Below, piece after piece: positions 12,107-54,900 of a DNA stretch of 64,000 nt. This stretch comes from Gallaecimonas kandeliae (GTDB taxonomy: Bacteria > Pseudomonadota > Gammaproteobacteria > Enterobacterales > Gallaecimonadaceae): NCBI RefSeq assembly GCF_030450055.1, contig NZ_CP118480.1, positions 1,267,415-1,331,414 of the forward strand, written 5' to 3'. The notes under the pieces are model-generated. The model searched no databases and was not told where the DNA came from. It saw only the letters and a program-made list of their open reading frames with translations. The position numbers and the translations under genes were made by a program. Position 1 is the stretch's first letter. Every line of letters starts with the position of its first letter.

Positions 12107-12124
12107 GTTGACGTTTACGTTAAC
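12107..12124. promoter_or_regulatory. LiuR-type operator, etf divergent region
   Basis: GTTGACGT-TT-ACGTTAAC: two 8-bp arms (7 of 8 paired) around a 2-bp centre. Located between ETF-QO (start 12015) and etfB (start 12196). The same architecture occurs before liuR and before the thiolase operon. LiuR control of ETF genes is known in gammaproteobacteria; assignment of the site here is by similarity. Confidence 0.75.
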
Positions 12125-22301: not shown

Positions 22302-22727
22302 TTAGCTGCCGCTGGCCTTTTTCTTATCCTGAATATCAGTCAAGGCGGCGCGACAGCGGGTTTCTGCCGACGTCAGTTCCATGAGCACCACTTTGATGTC
22401 TTCCATCTGCTGCTCCAGGGCCGATTTCTTTTCAAAAATCAGGTCCAGCATGGTGTGCAGCTGGGTGACGGAAGACTTGTCTGCATCGTACAGATCGAAC
22501 AGCTTGCGCACTTCCGCCAGGGTGAAACCCAGGCGTTTGCCACGGAGAGTCAGCTTGAGGCGAACCCTGTCCTGGCGATTGTAGACGCGCGTCTGTCCCT
22601 TACGCTCCGGCGTGATCAGCCCCTGGTCCTCGTAGAAACGGATGGACCTGGTGGTGATGTCGAACTCTTTCGCCAGTTCGCTGATGCTGTAGGTAATGCT
22701 CTTGTTGGACATGGTGTCTTGGCTCAT
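22302..22727 (-). CDS. liuR: MerR-family regulator LiuR
   Basis: 141 aa. N-terminal MerR winged helix-turn-helix (ITYSISELAKEFDITTRSIR, then FYEDQGLITPERKGQTRVYN), followed by the long dimerisation helix (~85-125). No metal-binding cysteines of the CueR/ZntR kind. It heads the liu operon, as LiuR does in Shewanella and Pseudomonas relatives. It is expected to bind the 18-bp palindromes described at 12107, 22754 and 23184. An alternative start lies at 22712 (MSNKSITYSI), closer to the family norm. The effector is presumably a CoA intermediate. Confidence 0.92.
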   Translation of the reverse strand: MSQDTMSNKSITYSISELAKEFDITTRSIRFYEDQGLITPERKGQTRVYNRQDRVRLKLTLRGKRLGFTLAEVRKLFDLYDADKSSVTQLHTMLDLIFEKKSALEQQMEDIKVVLMELTSAETRCRAALTDIQDKKKASGS

Positions 22728-22741
22728 CGTCGATGGTTCTA

Positions 22742-22771
22742 CCTTACTGGAAGTTTACGTAAAGGTAAAGC
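22742..22771 (-). promoter_or_regulatory. liuR: LiuR-type operator within the liuRABCDE promoter
   Basis: Read on the minus strand: CTTTACCT-TT-ACGTAAAC (22754-22771), containing the perfect core TTTACGTAAA. A -35 TTTACC (22765-22770) and -10 TAAGGT (22742-22747) with a 17-nt spacer bracket the core, so the regulator would sit between -35 and -10 as MerR proteins do. It is 15 nt before the liuR start, which gives autoregulation. Confidence 0.75.
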
Positions 22772-23179
22772 TATGGGCGCCCGGGGGGAAATGGCGCGCA
22801 AGCCCCTGTCAAGACTGACTTTCCTGGCTATAAAAGGCAAGCCTTCTTTGCCGGGGATTTCATCGTTTTGCCATGGGGGGGAAGGAAACTGGAAGGGGGC
22901 TGCCTCGGCTCGCCGGCGAGGAATGCCTTTTAGCTGCTTTGAAGGCCTAACGACCCAAACGGGCTGCTATGCTGCCAAGGACCTTTCATATAGAAAATAG
23001 GTATAGGTAAGGAAGGCGACGGGCATTATCCGGGCTCGAGAGGGTCCAAAAGAAGGGAGGATGCCTGGTTTGAGCGGTGCTGTGCCGTTAGCGACCTGAT
23101 TTAGAGAAGAGGAGTGTGCCAGGGGAGGGCTGTCACCAGGCCTGCTGGGGTCATCTTTTCCCAAGAGGTCCGATGCCCT
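22772..23179. other. Intergenic region between the liu and valine operons
   Basis: About 400 nt between two operators, with no convincing gene. A 75-codon open frame on the plus strand (about 22773-23000) has no ribosome site and no recognisable content. A TATAAA-like box occurs near 22835. Apart from that I see nothing in it. Confidence 0.4.
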
Positions 23180-23183
23180 TGAC

Positions 23184-23201
23184 GTTGCCGTAAACGTCAA
23201 C
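23184..23201 (+). promoter_or_regulatory. LiuR-type operator before the thiolase-mmsA operon
   Basis: GTTGCCGT-AA-ACGTCAAC (7 of 8 arm pairs), nested in a larger perfect inverted repeat TTGACGTT (23180-23187) / AACGTCAA (23193-23200). Possible -35 TTGCCG (23185-23190) and -10 TAGTCT (23209-23214) with an 18-nt spacer place it inside the promoter. The start codon is 41 nt downstream. Confidence 0.75.
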
Positions 23202-33855: not shown

Positions 33856-34797
33856 ATGACCGGCACCCGCAGGCCCGTTCTGGGCATAGCGCTTGGCAGT
33901 GGGGCCGCCAAGGGATGGGCCCATATCGGTATCCTCAACGGCTTGGCCAAGCTGGGCATCAAACCGGATCTGGTGGCAGGTTGCTCCATCGGCGCCCTGG
34001 TGGGCGCCGCCTACGCCGGAGGTCGGCTGGGCGTGCTGGAGAAGTGGGTACGGGGTTTTACCCGGCTGCAGGTGATGTCCCTGCTGGATCCCAGCTTCAG
34101 CGGCCGTGGCCTTTTCTCCGGCGAGAAGGTGTTCAATGTCATCTCCAACGGCATGAACCAGAACGATTTTTCCCAAACCAAGTTGCCGTTCGCGGTCGTC
34201 GCGACAGAGTTGCACACCGGGCGTGAGCATTGGATTGAAGAAGGGGATCTGGTGTCGGCGGTAAGGGCATCCTGTGCCATGCCTGGCCTGTTCGTCCCTA
34301 TCTACCGGGATGGCCACCTACTTATAGATGGGGCTGTGGTCAACCCTGTCCCCGTTTCCCTGGCCAGGGCCATGGGCGCCGAAGTGGTGATCGCCGTCAA
34401 CCTGGCCAGCGATGTTCACCATCAGGTGAATACCGAAGAGGAAGAGGAAGAAGAGGAAAGCGTCTTCAGGCAGTGGTTCAACCGCATCCGCCCCGAAAAG
34501 GAAGCCAAGGAGTTGCCTCTGCCGTCCATGTGGGGAGTGATGAGCGGCGCCATCAACATCATGCAGGAGAGGATCACCCGTGCCCGCATGGCCGGTGACC
34601 CACCCGAGCTGGAGCTCAAGCCTCGGCTGGCCGAGATCAACATCATGGAATTTCACCGTGCCGAGGAGGCGATTACCGAAGGGGAAGCCTGTGTGGCCCG
34701 CATGGCGCATTTTCTTTTGGCTGAGCTGGCCTACCTGGGGATCCACCCCGAACCCTCCGCAATGGAAGGCGATGGCGCGGGCAAAGCAAAAAGTTGA
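33856..34797 (+). CDS. Patatin-like phospholipase, RssA type
   Basis: 313 aa serine acyl hydrolase. Oxyanion loop LGSGAAKGWAH (~13-23), nucleophile S44 in GCSIG, catalytic Asp158 in DGA. This is the order seen in RssA/NTE-type bacterial patatins. An unusual run of eight Glu (194-201) splits the domain after the Asp loop and is followed by a charged linker. A C-terminal ~100-residue helical region follows. No signal peptide. GGAG before the ATG. Confidence 0.88.
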   Translation: MTGTRRPVLGIALGSGAAKGWAHIGILNGLAKLGIKPDLVAGCSIGALVGAAYAGGRLGVLEKWVRGFTRLQVMSLLDPSFSGRGLFSGEKVFNVISNGMNQNDFSQTKLPFAVVATELHTGREHWIEEGDLVSAVRASCAMPGLFVPIYRDGHLLIDGAVVNPVPVSLARAMGAEVVIAVNLASDVHHQVNTEEEEEEEESVFRQWFNRIRPEKEAKELPLPSMWGVMSGAINIMQERITRARMAGDPPELELKPRLAEINIMEFHRAEEAITEGEACVARMAHFLLAELAYLGIHPEPSAMEGDGAGKAKS

Positions 34798-34810
34798 CGT
34801 TGGCGTCAAC
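34793..34810. promoter_or_regulatory. LiuR-like palindrome at the end of the patatin gene
   Basis: GTTGACGT-TG-GCGTCAAC, 8-2-8 layout; inner GTTGACG/CGTCAAC pair perfectly. It covers the patatin stop codon and lies between convergent genes, so a promoter role is doubtful. It may be a chance match, a 3'-end hairpin, or a distal site. Confidence 0.35.
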
Positions 34811-35092
34811 CTTCTGGTCCGTCCAGTGGCTTTTTTTAGAGCGGTTGCTTTACGTGCGCGTCATGACTCCATATGATGATGACACTTCGATTACCTTGGT
34901 TTTCAGGTAAGCCGAAGAATAAATTCTCGTTGGGGGAGAAGCCTGGGCAAAGGAATTGACCAGGTAAAAAAGAAAGGGATAGCAATCGCAAATAAAAACA
35001 ACCGCCTAGAAGCGGGATAATAAGAAATAGCAAGCAGCGAAAAATAGAAAGGTACCGTGCAGTTAGATCCCAATGTACGATGTCGGTACTGC
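34811..35092. other. AT-richer intergenic stretch, no gene recognised
   Basis: About 280 nt of clearly lower GC than its surroundings, purine-rich on the plus strand. Open frames of 27-88 codons on both strands have no recognisable product. A T-run at 34831-34837 could end patatin transcription, but its stem is only 4 bp. Confidence 0.4.
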
Positions 35093-35135: not shown

Positions 35136-37064
35136 TCAGTAACGGAAGCGTCCCACCAGGGCTGCCAGGTCACCGGACAGCTGGTGCATGCGCCTGGCGG
35201 TCTGGGCCGAGGCGTTGGCGGCATTGGAAGCGTCCTGTGATGACAGGTTAATGCTTTCCACGTTGCGGTTAAGGTCATTGACCACGCTGGATTGCTCCTC
35301 CGTGGCCGTGGCCACCTGCAGGTTCATGTCGGAGATCTGCACCACCTTCTGGGTGATCTCCCCGAAAAGCCCCCCCAGCTTATTGACGGCGGCCACGGCG
35401 TCATCGGCCATGCTCTTGCCGGCCCCCATGGTGGTGACGGCGCTCTGGGTGTCCTGTTGGAGCTGGGTGATCATGCCTTGGATCTCCTCGGTGCTCTGGG
35501 CTGTCCTCGATGCCAGGCTCCTGACCTCGTCTGCCACCACCGCAAAGCCCCGCCCTGCATCGCCGGCACGGGCCGCTTCGATGGCGGCGTTGAGTGCCAG
35601 CAGGTTGGTCTGTTCCGAAATGCTGCGGATGACGTCCAGGATGGAACCAATCTGCACCGATTGCTGCGCCACCGTATTGATGACCCCCGAGGCCTTGTCC
35701 AACTGACCGGAGAGGTTGCCTATGGCATTGATGTTGGCACTGACTTCGCTACGGCCAGCTTCTGCCTGCTCTGAGGCCGCCTGGGCCACCTGGGCGGCGT
35801 TGGCGGCATTGGCGGCAATTTCCTGCACAGTGGCGCCCATCTCGGTGATGGCGGTGGCCACCAATGTGGTCTGATCCCTGACGCTGGCCGAGGCATTGGA
35901 GCCCCGCTCGGCGATATCCCTCACTTCATCGGCGCTGTGGTGTTGGGCCTCGGCGGTCTGGGCCATGTCCCTGACCATCTGCTGGAGCTGGGTGACGAAC
36001 TGATTGAAACCGCTGCTGAGGCGGGCGATTTCGTCGTCACCCTTGATGGGGATCCGTACCGAGAGGTCGCCACCGCCGGCGCCGACCTGCTCGAGGCGCT
36101 CCGCCACGTCCCTTACCGGCCTGGCAATGCTGTTGGCCACCAGCATCGCCAGGCCAATGCCCAATACCAGCACCGCCAGGGCCACGGCGATAGCGGTATA
36201 GGTGGCTTTGTTGACCGAGGCCAGCACTTCACTTCTCGGTACTTCGGCCACCAATACCCAGTCCACGTCGGGGACGCTGATGGCCGCTATCATGACGGTT
36301 TTGCCGTCCCGCTCGATAAGCCCCTGGTGGTAGCCGCTCTGGAGCAGAGTGGATGCCAAATCGGCGGTGGGGCCTTGGTCCAGCTGCTTGCCGTTCTGGG
36401 AATCGTCAGGGTGGATCCGTATCTTGCCGCTGCTGTCGGTGAGGTAGACATAGCCGCTCTGTTCCAGCCGGTAGTTGCGGATCTTGTCGGCCAGGGAACT
36501 GATGTTGAAGCCCACACCGGCGATGCCCAGGAAATGCCCGCTGAGGTCCCGCATGGTGATATCCACGAAGAAACGGGCCTGGCCTGAGGTGTCCACGTCG
36601 AACGCCAGGTCGCTGTCTTTGCCGCTGTCCTGGATGCGGAAAAACCAGGTGAAATTGGGATTGTTGCGGTCGAAACTGCCCTGCAAGCCCTTATCGTCGA
36701 TGGCCCGATGTTTGCCCCCCGTCATCACGAAGACAGTGTCAGCGCCAAAGCTCTTCTTGATGGCGGTCAACTTGGCTAGCAGCTGTTGCTGGCGCTGGTC
36801 CGCCGGCTCGCCGTCCTCAATCCACTGGTGGATGAAGGGGTCCAGGGCCAGCTGCCTGGCGTTGGCCATGGCCGGCTTGATGTCGGCCTGGATCTCATTG
36901 CGGATCGCCTTCAGCTTGGCGGGTAGCTCTTCCTTGGTCACCTTGTGGGTGATGAGCTGATGCTCGCTATAGAGGGTGATGAAGGAGTTGAGCAACAAGG
37001 CCAGGGTCATCAGCAGGCTGATGACCAGGATAAGCCGGTTGCGGATGGATAGGGCGGTCAACAT
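35136..37064 (-). CDS. Methyl-accepting chemotaxis protein with dCache sensor
   Basis: 642 aa. TM1 (~10-32), a large periplasmic Cache-type domain (~33-275; the WFFRIQDSG...FFVDITMRD and [17 protein letters not shown] strands are typical of dCache_1), TM2 (~285-308), HAMP (~309-362) and the cytoplasmic signalling coiled coil with [18 protein letters not shown] and [15 protein letters not shown]. Such sensors often bind amino acids, but the ligand motif cannot be judged by eye. No CheR tether. Single gene. Confidence 0.92.
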
Positions 37065-48629: not shown

Positions 48630-49862
48630 GTGAATATTCAAGCCCTGCGTGACCAGTTTCCTGCCCTGAACCAAGATCTCAACGGTGCCAAGCCGGTCTT
48701 CCTGGACGGCCCCGGCGGCGCCCAGGTGCCCCAGTCGGTGCTGAATGCCATGACCGGCTACCTCGGCCGTTACAACGCCAACCTGGGGGGCGCCTACTTC
48801 TCTTCCCAGAAGACCATGGAGGTGATGGCCCAGGCCCGCGAGGCGGCCAAGGATCTGCTGAACGCCCGCCGCCCCGAGGAGATCGTCTTCGGCCCCAACA
48901 TGACCACCCTGACCTTCGCCTTCTCCCGCGCCATCAGCCGCGACTGGCAGGCCGGCAACGAGGTGATAGTGACGGCCCTGGATCACTACTCCAACGTTTC
49001 CTCCTGGATGGAAGCGGCGGCCGACAAGGGCGTCACAGTGCACCAGGTGCCGGTCAGGGAAGCAGACTGCACCCTGGACTACGACGCCCTCTTCGCCAAG
49101 CTGGGCCCCAAGACCCGGCTGGTGGCCCTGAGCCATGCCTCCAACACCACCGGCTCCATCGTCGACGTCAAGCGCGTGGTGGAAGCGGCCCACAAGGTGG
49201 GTGCCCTGGTCTGGGTGGACGCCGTCCACTACACCCCCCACGAGCTGGTGGATGTCCAGGCCCTGGGCTGCGACTTCCTGGCCTGCAGCGCCTACAAGTT
49301 CTTCGGCCCGCATCTGGGCATGATCTGCGGCCGCTATGCGCTGCTGGGCAGCCTGCGCCCCTACAAGGTGGAGCCGGCCACCAACCTGGTTCCCGGCAAA
49401 TTCGAGACCGGCACCCAGAGCTTCGAGGCCCTGGCCGGTTTCATCGAGGCCGTCAACTACCTGGCCTCCCTGGCGGGCCTGCCTGGCGACAAGCCGCGCC
49501 GCGAGCGGCTGGTGGCCAGCTACCAGGCCAGCAAGCAGCACGAGATGATGCTTAGCCAGTATTTCCTGGAGCGCGCCGCCGCCATACCGGCCATGAAGAT
49601 CCGTGGCATCACCGACCAGGGCCGCCTGGCCGAGCGCACCCCCACCTTCGCCTTCACCCTGGACGGGGTGGCCAACAGGGCCGTCAGCGAGGCCATGGGG
49701 CAGGCCGGCATCTGCCTTGGCGACGGCAACTTCTACGCCCTGGGCCTGGTACGCCAGTTGGGCCTGGAAGAGAGCGGCATAGTGCGGGTGGGCTGCATGC
49801 ACTACAACAGCACCGACGAGCTGGACCGCTTCTTTGATGTGCTGCAAAGCCTGGTGAAGTAA
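48630..49862 (+). CDS. Cysteine-desulfurase-like PLP enzyme, VC1184 family
   Basis: 410 aa class V aminotransferase fold. PLP lysine K223 in SAYKFFGPHLG, Asp197 and His200 in VDAVHYTPHE, phosphate-binding FGPNMTTL near 88. The Cys loop expected for a true desulfurase is not evident, so the reaction may be a related lyase or transaminase. GTG start with GGAAAG. Followed by a terminator and then pdxH, which makes its cofactor. Confidence 0.85.
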   Translation: MNIQALRDQFPALNQDLNGAKPVFLDGPGGAQVPQSVLNAMTGYLGRYNANLGGAYFSSQKTMEVMAQAREAAKDLLNARRPEEIVFGPNMTTLTFAFSRAISRDWQAGNEVIVTALDHYSNVSSWMEAAADKGVTVHQVPVREADCTLDYDALFAKLGPKTRLVALSHASNTTGSIVDVKRVVEAAHKVGALVWVDAVHYTPHELVDVQALGCDFLACSAYKFFGPHLGMICGRYALLGSLRPYKVEPATNLVPGKFETGTQSFEALAGFIEAVNYLASLAGLPGDKPRRERLVASYQASKQHEMMLSQYFLERAAAIPAMKIRGITDQGRLAERTPTFAFTLDGVANRAVSEAMGQAGICLGDGNFYALGLVRQLGLEESGIVRVGCMHYNSTDELDRFFDVLQSLVK

Positions 49863-49865
49863 GAT

Positions 49866-49891
49866 AAGGCAGTCTGATGACTGCCTTTTTT
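49866..49891 (+). terminator. Terminator between the PLP enzyme gene and pdxH
   Basis: AAGGCAGTC-TGAT-GACTGCCTT plus a T run, 3 nt past the stop. Confidence 0.85.
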
Positions 49892-49903
49892 ATTGGAGCC
49901 GGA

Positions 49904-50539
49904 ATGAGCATCGACGCCATGCGGCGGGTTTTCCGCCATGCCCCCCTGACCCAATTGGATGCCGATCCGCTGCACCAGTTCGACCAGTGGTTTCGCGAAG
50001 CCCGTGACGCCAGCCCGGTGGACTGGCTGGAAGTGAACGCCATGACCCTCTCTACCCTGGGCCTGGACGGGTTCCCCAAGGCCAGGATAGTGCTGCTCAA
50101 GGGCCTGGACGAACGCGGCTTCCAGTTCTTCACCAATTACGACTCCGACAAGGGCAAGGAGCTGGCGGCCAACCCCAACGCCAGCCTCAACTTCTACTGG
50201 CCGCACCTGGCCCGCCAGGTGCGGGTCGAAGGCCGGGTTGAGAAGGTCAGTCGCGAGGAGTCCGAGGCCTACTTCGCCTCCCGCCCACGGGGCTCCCAAC
50301 TGGGGGCCTGGGCCTCGGCCCAGTCCGAGGCCATCGACACCCCGGCGGTGCTGGACGGCCAGTTGGAGGCCGCCGAGGCTCGCTTCCCCGGCACTGTGCC
50401 CTGTCCGCCCCATTGGGGAGGCTACCTGCTGGTGCCACAGCGCATCGAGTTCTGGGCCGGGCGGGAGAACCGCCTGCACCACAGGGTCCGCTACGAACGA
50501 GCGGAGAAAGGTTGGCAGCACCAGTGGCTGTCTCCCTGA
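49904..50539 (+). CDS. pdxH: Pyridoxine/pyridoxamine 5'-phosphate oxidase
   Basis: 211 aa FMN oxidase forming PLP. ARIVLLKGLDERGFQFFTNY (FMN-binding), RQVRVEGRVEKVS, and the C-terminal EFWAGRENRLHHRVRY signature. ATG 49904 with GGAG gives MSIDAMRRVF, the family start; an in-frame earlier ATG falls inside the terminator. Confidence 0.95.
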   Translation: MSIDAMRRVFRHAPLTQLDADPLHQFDQWFREARDASPVDWLEVNAMTLSTLGLDGFPKARIVLLKGLDERGFQFFTNYDSDKGKELAANPNASLNFYWPHLARQVRVEGRVEKVSREESEAYFASRPRGSQLGAWASAQSEAIDTPAVLDGQLEAAEARFPGTVPCPPHWGGYLLVPQRIEFWAGRENRLHHRVRYERAEKGWQHQWLSP

Positions 50540-52972: not shown

Positions 52973-53413
52973 TTATGGGCGGCAGCACGCCTTATACTTT
53001 CGGCTAGAGCCACAGGGGCAGGGGGCGTTGCGATCGGGCTGGGGGTAGGTGCCGGAATGGAATAACCAGCGGCCCTCGATCTTGAGGAAGAGGCTCTTTT
53101 CCAGGTGGAAGACAACCTTGTCGCCGTCCTGGTAGCGGGCCACGAAGGTGACCTGGCTCTCTTTGGCACCGGCTTTGTGTTCCAGCACCTTGAGATCCAT
53201 CCAGGGCAGGGCGATGAAGGGGTGGATGTCGGCCAGCTCAGGCCTGGTATCCGGGTGCCAGCTGTCCAGGATGAAGGCCGGCAGAGCCTTGACGTGGGCG
53301 CAGTAGCGCGCCCGCATCAGGGCTTCGGCGCTCTCGGCCAGTGCGCCCTGGTGCAGGGCGCCGCAGCAGCCTTCATAGGTAAGGCCGGAGCCGCAGGGGC
53401 AATCAGGCCGCAT
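52973..53413 (-). CDS. ychJ: YchJ-family SEC-C zinc-motif protein
   Basis: 146 aa. SEC-C motifs at both ends: CPCGSGLTYEGCC (6-18) and CPCGSSRKYKACC (~132-144), around an NTF2-like middle (LMRARYCAHVKALPAFILDS, WLFHSGTY). Function unknown. It overlaps the end of the dioxygenase gene by 11 nt, so both are probably on one transcript. Confidence 0.9.
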   Translation of the reverse strand: MRPDCPCGSGLTYEGCCGALHQGALAESAEALMRARYCAHVKALPAFILDSWHPDTRPELADIHPFIALPWMDLKVLEHKAGAKESQVTFVARYQDGDKVVFHLEKSLFLKIEGRWLFHSGTYPQPDRNAPCPCGSSRKYKACCRP

Positions 53414-54056
53414 GGGCGGTCAGCACCACCACGTCCCAGTAGCCGAGCTGTTGGCCTTCAAGGGGAATGACGGGGGCGGCGTTGTGGAAGTAGCGGGCGT
53501 CGTTGAGCACCACATATTGGCCGTCGGCAAAGCGTTCGCAGAAGAAGGGCGCGGCGTCCTTGGCTTCGTAGAGCATCAGCTCGCCGCCTTCGACGCTGCC
53601 GGTGCCCAGCACATAGACGCCGAGGAAATCGAAGCCATCCTGATGCACGCCCTCGGGGGCCGGCGGGGTGGCATTGCGGGATTCGGTCTTGATGCGGATC
53701 TGGTGAATTTCGATCACCGCCTCGTCGCTCAGGCCGCATTCCTGCTGGAAACCCTCAAGCATGGCCACCATGGCCTCGCCGTGCAGGGTGGCGTCGGGGA
53801 TTTCTTCGTAGCGGCGCTCCACATCCCCCAGGTACTGGTTGATGTCGCTGGACTGCATGAAGCTCTTGGTGGGCAGGCGCTGGACCTGGCCCGCTACCAG
53901 CTTGACGTTGGAATAGCAGCGGTAACGGAAATCCCCCTGGATATAGGGATCCTTGGGCAGGGCATTGAAACTGTCCTGGATGCCGGCAACGGCGGCGGCG
54001 CTCAGCTGACCTTGGACCAGGGTGAAGTCGGATGCGGGGCTCAGGGTAGGACTCAT
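53403..54056 (-). CDS. 2OG-Fe(II) dioxygenase, PF10014 family (free amino acid hydroxylase candidate)
   Basis: 217 aa. Iron facial triad His138-x-Asp140 (GVHQDGFDFLG) and His191 (DARYFHNAAPV); the RYRCYSNVKLV strand, EIHQIRIKT and GGELMLYE match the layout of L-isoleucine 4-hydroxylase and its relatives. These hydroxylate free aliphatic L-amino acids, which is known for the family; substrate here is unproven. ATG 54054-54056 with GGAGAAG. A consensus promoter lies upstream and, beyond it, a LiuR-like palindrome. Confidence 0.82.
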   Translation of the reverse strand: MSPTLSPASDFTLVQGQLSAAAVAGIQDSFNALPKDPYIQGDFRYRCYSNVKLVAGQVQRLPTKSFMQSSDINQYLGDVERRYEEIPDATLHGEAMVAMLEGFQQECGLSDEAVIEIHQIRIKTESRNATPPAPEGVHQDGFDFLGVYVLGTGSVEGGELMLYEAKDAAPFFCERFADGQYVVLNDARYFHNAAPVIPLEGQQLGYWDVVVLTAHAA

Positions 54057-54093
54057 TACTTCTCCATCACTGCTGTCGTGCAACAGGGGCGGC

Positions 54094-54122
54094 ATTATAG
54101 CGGCGGCTTGTGGCACTGTCAT
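54094..54122 (-). promoter_or_regulatory. Sigma-70 promoter of the dioxygenase gene
   Basis: Minus strand: ATGACA (54117-54122), 17-nt spacer, perfect TATAAT (54094-54099). Leader of about 30 nt. Confidence 0.75.
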
Positions 54123-54131
54123 GACATGAAC

Positions 54132-54149
54132 TGTGACGTTAACGTCAAC
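54132..54149. promoter_or_regulatory. LiuR-like operator between the dioxygenase and marC-type genes
   Basis: TGTGACGT-TA-ACGTCAAC with the perfect 14-nt core TGACGTTAACGTCA (54134-54147), and a further half-site TTGACGTA at 54151-54158. It starts 9 nt upstream of the dioxygenase -35, and the half-site could itself be the -35 (TTGACG, 20-nt spacer, TCTAAT) of the marC-type gene. Confidence 0.5.
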
Positions 54150-54267
54150 TTTGACGTACAGGGAAAAATCAAAAATTCTAATGCGAGCGTGCGCAAAATA
54201 ACTCGTTAGTCCAAGCCCTTGCCGGCCAGTAGACTTGCTCCACCTTGAAACAGCCGGAGCCCTGACG

Positions 54268-54900
54268 GTGGACTACGCCATCTATACCCAGTTTTTCGTG
54301 GCCATGCTGGCCATCGTCAACCCCTTTGGGCTCTTGCCGATCTTCATCGGCCTCACTTCCGATCAGAGCCAGCAGGAGCGGCGCCGCACTGCGCTGATGG
54401 CCAGCTTTGCCTCGGCCGTGATCCTCTGGGTGGTGTTGTTGCTGGGGGAAAGCCTGCTGCACTTCTTCTCCATCTCAGTCTCCTCCTTCCAGGTGGCCGG
54501 CGGCGTGCTGCTGAGCTTCACGGCTCTCTCCATGCTCCAGGGCAAACTGGGGGAGACGAGGCGCACCACAGAAGAAGGCCGGGAAGCGGCCGGCATGGAC
54601 TCCGTCATCCTGGTGCCCCTGGCGCTGCCGCTTATCGCAGGCCCTGCCGCCATCACCACCGTCATCGTCTTTACCCAGGCCCACCACAGTCTGGTGGACA
54701 AGGGCGCCCTCGGTATCGCCATCGCCTTGCTGGCCTTGGTGACCTGGGCCGTATTCCTCTGCGCCCCTGTGCTGGCGCGCTGGCTGGGCACCACCGGCAT
54801 CAACCTCATCACCAGGGTCATGGGCCTCATCATGATGGCGCTGGCGGTGGAATTCATGGCAAAGGGGGTCAAGGGGCTCTTCCCCGTGCTCTGTGGTTAA
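54268..54900 (+). CDS. MarC/NAAT-family membrane protein
   Basis: 210 aa, six helices. VAMLAIVNPFGLLPIFIGLT (~13-32) and VPLALPLIAGPAAITTVIVF (~115-134) are the two repeated signature halves of the MarC family. Members include SnatA-type neutral amino acid carriers; E. coli MarC has no drug role. GTG start with GGAG 8 nt upstream. Divergent from the dioxygenase gene with the palindrome between them. Confidence 0.88.
   Translation: MDYAIYTQFFVAMLAIVNPFGLLPIFIGLTSDQSQQERRRTALMASFASAVILWVVLLLGESLLHFFSISVSSFQVAGGVLLSFTALSMLQGKLGETRRTTEEGREAAGMDSVILVPLALPLIAGPAAITTVIVFTQAHHSLVDKGALGIAIALLALVTWAVFLCAPVLARWLGTTGINLITRVMGLIMMALAVEFMAKGVKGLFPVLCG

Follow-up and report, generated by a model that had tools for sequence, protein, structure and literature searches.

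In a 64,000-nucleotide stretch of the Gallaecimonas kandeliae genome (contig NZ_CP118480.1, positions 1,267,415 to 1,331,414; hereafter the window), a gene for a PF10014 2-oxoglutarate- and iron-dependent (2OG-Fe) dioxygenase lies divergent from a MarC-family gene, and the gap between them holds a palindrome resembling operators of LiuR, a repressor of the MerR family that governs branched-chain amino acid use (PMC3223726). We propose, with a probability of roughly 0.4 for the explanation as a whole, that this palindrome serves as a LiuR-type operator for one gene of a two-enzyme hydroxylation–cleavage module whose halves are encoded apart. The other half would be a pyridoxal 5'-phosphate (PLP) enzyme, encoded 3.5 kb from the dioxygenase gene and carrying a LiuR-type box of its own. 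That the two enzymes act in one pathway is very probable, and the sequence of the palindrome beside the dioxygenase gene (box 1) makes it a likely LiuR-type operator, whereas C4 hydroxylation followed by C3–C4 cleavage is a tentative assignment. Feature coordinates are collected in Table 1.

The link between the two enzymes comes from their distribution. With strict cut-offs (E <= 1e-25 for the dioxygenase, E <= 1e-60 for the PLP enzyme), both were detected in the identical 59 of 394 genomes of the order, spread over 12 genera; in a first sample, both genes had been present in the same 11 of 59 genomes. The genes are adjacent on the same strand with a gap of less than 250 bp in 52 of the carriers and lie apart in seven, namely four members of the window's genus and three genomes of family f25. 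Joint absence was recorded in genera that include carriers, in genomes G001 (genus g1), G013 (g10), G015 (g12) and G049 (g35). Because the genomes are related and most pairs form one locus, most of the weight falls on joint absence and on the seven pairs whose genes lie apart. G001, a member of the window's genus, retains the gene order dgt, marC, ychJ, scfa, metA, pdxH and the 48035-type gene and lacks both the dioxygenase and the PLP gene; since G003, the most distant relative, has both, the module was probably lost in G001 rather than originally absent. Among the named homologue loci, which are the best 80 of 460 dioxygenase relatives, a PLP ortholog lies inside the 4-kb flank of 46; in 44 it follows the dioxygenase directly in the same orientation, and in 2 it is on the opposite strand. 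An Lrp/AsnC-type gene (one member Pfam-checked) is found near 13 of these loci, 8 of which also have the PLP gene, and the remaining recurrent neighbours are mostly confined to single lineages. In a sample of the whole class, the strict cut-offs retrieved the dioxygenase from 1 of 369 genomes and the PLP enzyme from 6 of 369, the window's own genome (G000) being in both sets; in four of the five other PLP carriers, another part of the genome gives a weaker PF10014 match, which was not counted as support.

Box 1 contains a perfect 14-nucleotide palindromic core, TGACGTTAACGTCA, at 54134–54147, which occurs as a single perfect copy across the 3.84-Mb genome. With up to three mismatches, the core is matched 11 times in the window, whereas 100 shuffles averaged 0.69 matches and never exceeded 4; with up to two mismatches it has 26 forward matches genome-wide against 9 in the backwards control. 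A broader LiuR-type pattern, the 8-2-8 palindrome TTKACGTNNACGTMAA, was derived from the window's own sites at liuR, etf and the thiolase gene rather than from the published LiuR motif. At no more than one mismatch it matches the window 7 times (0.01 expected); box 1 and the PLP-gene box each deviate from it at one position. In the window's own genome it occurs with zero or one mismatch at at least 18 places, and at two mismatches 67 times against 52 in the control, so looser matches mean little. Four genus relatives, at up to one mismatch, gave 12 forward matches against 5 backwards, 20 against 4, 13 against 1 and 23 against 2. Thirteen sites, box 1 and the PLP-gene box not among them, served to train a weight matrix, which ranked the PLP-gene box third (24.8) and box 1 fifth (22.4) in the window, among liuR (25.2), etf (25.0), thiolase (23.6) and a site at 34794 (22.1); this ranking is partly circular, as the training sites were chosen with TTKACGTNNACGTMAA and include those at liuR, etf and thiolase. 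None of 1,279,700 simulated positions reached the score of box 1, and likewise none that of the PLP-gene box. An additional half-site, TTTGACGTAC, at 54150–54159 forms the weaker box 2. The initial annotation had described the perfect core with its extra half-site, the layout shared with the liuR, etf and thiolase sites, the identities of the two divergent genes and the position of the palindrome outside the dioxygenase −35/−10 region, and the coordinates and family scores in Table 1 agree with it on each of these.

The closest PDB match of the PLP protein is Fgm3 (9x4u), with 190 bits against 172 for SufS. With SufS and CsdA it shares the class-V PLP fold family and the PLP lysine (K223), and it differs from them in Y369, which aligns with the catalytic cysteine of SufS, is tyrosine in all 53 orthologs and corresponds to phenylalanine in Fgm3. 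Neither the missing cysteine nor the SufS model score of 223.4 against a cut-off of 475.1 fits a SufS/CsdA cysteine desulfurase. Fgm3 is described as cleaving the C-beta/C-gamma bond of 4-hydroxyarginine to yield L-Ala (PMC10967133, PMC10367076), and its Y225 is given as a proposed, and only proposed, retro-aldol base (PMC10367076). The pdxH gene that follows is probably co-transcribed with the PLP gene.

The dioxygenase most likely starts at ATG 54056, giving 217 amino acids, because the upstream ATG 54122 falls within the predicted −35 element (ATGACA, 54122–54117); the −10 element is TATAAT at 54099–54094, and its region is kept in G002 and G004 and weaker in G003. The iron triad H-x-D...H is present in 89 of 89 aligned sequences, in which R121 is also invariant. 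An AlphaFold model (mean predicted local distance difference test score 79, built from 9 sequences) lies nearest to the PDB chains of HrmJ and BelL, followed by 8w8h, 3pl0 and IDO. The characterised relatives mostly attack C4: for BelL and HrmJ hydrogen abstraction at C4 of 6-nitronorleucine is described (PMC10764440), and for IDO and HilB C4 hydroxylation of free amino acids (PMC3684760). The initial annotation had carried the substrates Ile, Leu and Met over from known PF10014 members, an analogy with IDO that the pocket does not sustain. IDO residues Y143, S153 and R227 correspond to I122, P132 and W207, leaving P155 as the one retained residue of four, and the R227 column, placed by alignment to the 6lnh (IDO) segment, is M in 47, L in 22, W in 18 and R in 2 of the 89 sequences. 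In simulations of IDO, R227 and Y143 contact the substrate carboxylate, and R227 variants are reported as inactive toward two aromatic amino acids (PMC10180240). Loss of 2-oxoglutarate binding through the missing GxRD arginine was considered and is not claimed here, the simulated position of IDO R227 being on the substrate carboxylate and R121 being invariant; moreover, two aligned members of family f2 keep the GxRD arginine and have the same PLP partner downstream. Besides its module dioxygenase, one genome encodes a second and more distant PF10014 paralog with 26% identity (locus L012, G047:C4).

For LiuR binding, repression, reaction and substrate, we infer the following scheme. The PF10014 enzyme would act on a free amino acid and hydroxylate it, most likely at C4; the PLP enzyme would then cut the C3–C4 bond of the product, releasing a short amino acid such as L-alanine together with an aldehyde or ketone. 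In three of the five genus members (G000, G002 and G004), LiuR would repress both genes when branched-chain amino acid breakdown is off. The promoter scanner found none for the PLP gene; by eye, TGGACT-N17-TACACT can be read, and the box lies after the TACACT element, before the start codon and over the predicted transcription start, which suits a repressor. In MerR-type activated promoters, the operator lies within a −35/−10 spacer of 19–20 nucleotides; this is not so at the dioxygenase, where the spacer is N17 and box 1 lies outside it. In the dioxygenase–marC gap, LiuR seated on both boxes might block both divergent promoters, or it might act mainly on marC. We favour joint repression of the module, although we hold this loosely, and the effect of LiuR at the dioxygenase is less clear, since box 1 lies upstream of the promoter and beside the possible marC promoter.

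Several observations weigh against the proposed module and its control. Box 1 occupies about −46 to −61, upstream of the predicted dioxygenase −35, which would be unusual for simple repression. A check suggested in the initial annotation, conservation of the palindrome in close relatives, gave a divided answer: box 1 is kept in G004 with one mismatch, is degraded in G002, where the inner half alone is left (3 mismatches, score 10.8), and is missing from G003, which carries both genes and neither box. The PLP-gene box is present in G000, G002 and G004, so that of the four dioxygenase-bearing genomes three have it, while two keep box 1 and a third has a degraded copy; boxes at both genes are thus co-present in three members, one copy being degraded, and co-absent in the fourth. 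Outside the genus, the 400 bp ahead of the dioxygenase gene at the 80 named loci contain no LiuR-type box with up to one mismatch; the best, at L072, has two. The co-occurrence consists largely of adjacent pairs in related genomes, the PLP gene is missing from the flank at 34 of the 80 named loci (some contigs being short) and at 5 of the 13 Lrp/AsnC-type loci, and G559, outside the order, has the PLP enzyme without any PF10014 match. As for the chemistry, Fgm3 leads SufS by 18 bits only, and the Fgm3 Y225 position, placed by counting two residues past the PLP lysine, is phenylalanine in 51 of 53 orthologs and tyrosine in 2, which slightly lowers the already modest odds of C4 hydroxylation and C3–C4 cleavage. 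With three of the four IDO pocket residues replaced, the substrate may bind differently, and TqaL, a relative by structure, acts at C3 (PMC10764440).

The same data were weighed against other explanations. That the enzyme pair makes or degrades a specialised metabolite while the boxes serve no regulatory use is, in our view, unlikely, though the relatives BelL, HrmJ and TqaL are described as biosynthetic (PMC10764440) and the absence of boxes in G003, and of any with up to one mismatch at the named-locus dioxygenases, would fit such a role. The window nevertheless has two separate high-scoring boxes, the species that keep the one at the PLP gene are those that keep box 1, and recurrent neighbours other than the PLP and Lrp/AsnC-type genes are mostly single-lineage, no search aimed at biosynthetic clusters having been made. 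It is also rather improbable that the module is real while the palindrome belongs to marC, or to a different regulator with a TGACGT half-site, instead of to the dioxygenase. Box 2 overlaps the −35 of the possible marC promoter, whose 20-nucleotide spacer is typical of MerR control; the stretch from box 1 to the dioxygenase promoter is poorly conserved, and the three half-sites in a row at boxes 1 and 2 are unlike the double boxes at liuR, thiolase and bkd, which are 6 bp apart. Weighing the other way, marC occurs without any box in G001 and G003, and the PLP gene, which lies away from marC, has the same type of box in the same three species.

The initial annotation had gone further and read the locus as a hydroxylation branch under LiuR, with free Ile, Leu or Met as substrates of the dioxygenase and with possible export of the product by MarC. 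Its LiuR-type box and divergent MarC neighbour are supported, as is, on the level of a prediction from sequence, control together with branched-chain breakdown; MarC as the partner is not, genome comparison pointing to the PLP enzyme instead. Export is given little credence, despite the divergent MarC that accompanies the LiuR-type box in the window and occurs in the four dioxygenase-bearing genus members, and despite a conserved block in G000, G002 and G004 that extends from the box toward marC. A search of the 4-kb flanks with the window MarC (E <= 1e-12) also placed a divergent relative near the dioxygenase in 6 of the 80 named loci, every one from Aeromonas. The other 74 loci lack a nearby MarC relative, G001 keeps marC and its synteny without the dioxygenase, 9 of the 14 MarC-family-positive genomes in a sample of 21 have no dioxygenase, and the IDO pocket residues are not retained. 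Least credible of all is an accidental match in a region rich in LiuR sites: the motif is barely enriched genome-wide at two mismatches, but the excess of window boxes, the empty simulations, the forward surplus in all four relatives at up to one mismatch and the retention of the box in G004 speak strongly against it.

The proposed hydroxylation–cleavage module can be set beside several known systems. Its dioxygenase resembles IDO and HilB in fold (6lnh, TMq up to 0.71), iron triad, HQxR motif and P155, and departs from them at the three replaced pocket positions and in having E135-G136 for I-W; it also has a PLP partner in place of HilA/HilC and scores 21.5 against a cut-off of 350 with the NCBIfam HilB model. 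The BelL/HrmJ cyclopropanases (PDB name BsmA domain protein) are the nearest structures (9dq0, 8jms), share the PEGxHxDG motif and abstract a C4 hydrogen of a free amino acid, whereas they retain the arginine at GxRD and belong to antibiotic pathways. The Fgm1–Fgm3 route of Fusarium parallels the proposed order of C4 hydroxylation and C-beta/C-gamma cutting by a PLP enzyme, and it differs in its hydroxylase, a P450, in being biosynthetic, and at the presumed Y225, which is phenylalanine in 51 of 53 orthologs of the window enzyme.

If the proposal is true, bacteria would break an unactivated amino-acid carbon chain by means of an oxygenase–lyase pair; to our knowledge, such a pair for amino-acid chain cleavage is known solely from a fungal biosynthetic route. 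In the open-licence literature, no paper was found that joins PF10014 to TIGR01976, or either of them to LiuR. The boldest form of the idea, a new gammaproteobacterial degradation route with C4 hydroxylation of a common amino acid by PF10014 and a C3–C4 cut by TIGR01976, joined in this genus to branched-chain control through LiuR boxes at two separate genes, is doubtful; in such a route, leucine might yield L-alanine and acetone, and isoleucine 2-aminobutyrate and acetaldehyde. The analysis gives a testable function to two families left vague or misnamed in databases, this PF10014 clade and the "cysteine desulfurase-like" TIGR01976, in many gammaproteobacteria, and the box-less and gene-less species are ready controls for the LiuR link.

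Table 1. Genes, boxes and promoter elements of the window
Feature	Coordinates	Strand	Basis and remarks
LiuR-type operator, etf operon	12108–12123	none	Pattern and matrix match
liuR, MerR-family regulator	22302–22727	−	Adjoins predicted liu genes
Operator at liuR	22754–22769	none	Pattern and matrix match
Two overlapping LiuR-type operators, thiolase gene	23179–23200	none	Pattern and matrix match
LiuR-type box of the PLP gene, TTGACGTTAACGGAAA	48607–48622	none	7 bp upstream of the PLP gene
PLP enzyme, aminotransferase class V, TIGR01976 (cysteine desulfurase-like, VC1184 type), Fgm3-like	48630–49862	+	505.8 bits, cut-off 352.35
pdxH, pyridoxamine 5'-phosphate oxidase	49877–50539	+	14 bp after the PLP gene
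PF10014 2OG-Fe dioxygenase	53403–54056	−	PF10014 5.8e-53; iron triad H138-x-D140...H191
Predicted dioxygenase promoter, ATGACA-N17-TATAAT	54094–54122	−	11 of 12 positions match, 0.1 expected
LiuR-type box 1, GTGACGTTAACGTCAA	54133–54148	none	Holds the perfect core 54134–54147
Weaker LiuR-type box 2, TTGACGTACAGGGAAA	54151–54166	none	2 mismatches, score 15.6; centre 18 bp from box 1
Possible marC promoter, TTGACG-N20-TCTAAT	54151–54182	+	By eye; −35 overlapped by box 2; scanner ignores 20-nucleotide spacers
MarC/YchE-type NAAT family membrane protein	54268–54900	+	GTG 54268, alternative TTG 54235; PF01914 1.7e-61; YchE-family NCBIfam equivalog NF008320 261.7, cut-off 216

The MerR-family gene at 22302–22727 is surrounded by acyl-CoA dehydrogenase, carboxyl transferase, enoyl-CoA hydratase, biotin carboxylase and HMG-CoA-lyase-type genes; this is the usual set of liu genes, and we take the regulator and its neighbours to be liuR and liuA–E. 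Genes at the other boxes of the genome resemble, by eye and from their first residues, bkd E1, acetolactate synthase, prpB/prpC, gltB, kbl/tdh, hutI and hpd, and so look like members of a broad amino-acid regulon. The arrangement is comparable with the regulon described for LiuR in Shewanella and other proteobacteria (PMC3223726, PMC5343134) in its MerR regulator beside liu genes and in palindromes at liuR and at bkd- and gltB-like genes (by eye). The targets listed there include ldh, liu, ivd, bkd, gltBD, thrABC and aceBA, while we met no mention there of a PF10014 dioxygenase, a TIGR01976 PLP enzyme or MarC as LiuR targets. A further LiuR-type palindrome, GTTGACGTTGGCGTCAAC, at 34793–34810 (score 22.1) overlaps the stop codon of the open reading frame 33856–34797; the gene after it, 35136–37064, is on the opposite strand, leaving no evident target, and a weaker site begins at 34849. 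Two overlapping LiuR-type boxes at L024 (G000:C1:1726871-1726892) lie near a ketoacyl-ACP-synthase-III-like gene (named by eye), a possible regulon member.

Upstream of marC, the stretch at 54177–54206 (CTAATGC...AAAATA.CTCGTTA) is largely conserved in the five aligned genus members, including G001, which lacks the dioxygenase, and may be the actual marC promoter or the site of another protein. In Aeromonas, the dioxygenase is divergent from a MarC/YchE-type gene at loci L163, L166, L168, L075, L079, L084, L091, L097 and L103, and no LiuR box was seen by eye in the marC–dioxygenase gap. At L163, L166 and L168, adhE- and oppA-like genes (by eye) stand on both sides, and the PLP gene is on a different contig.

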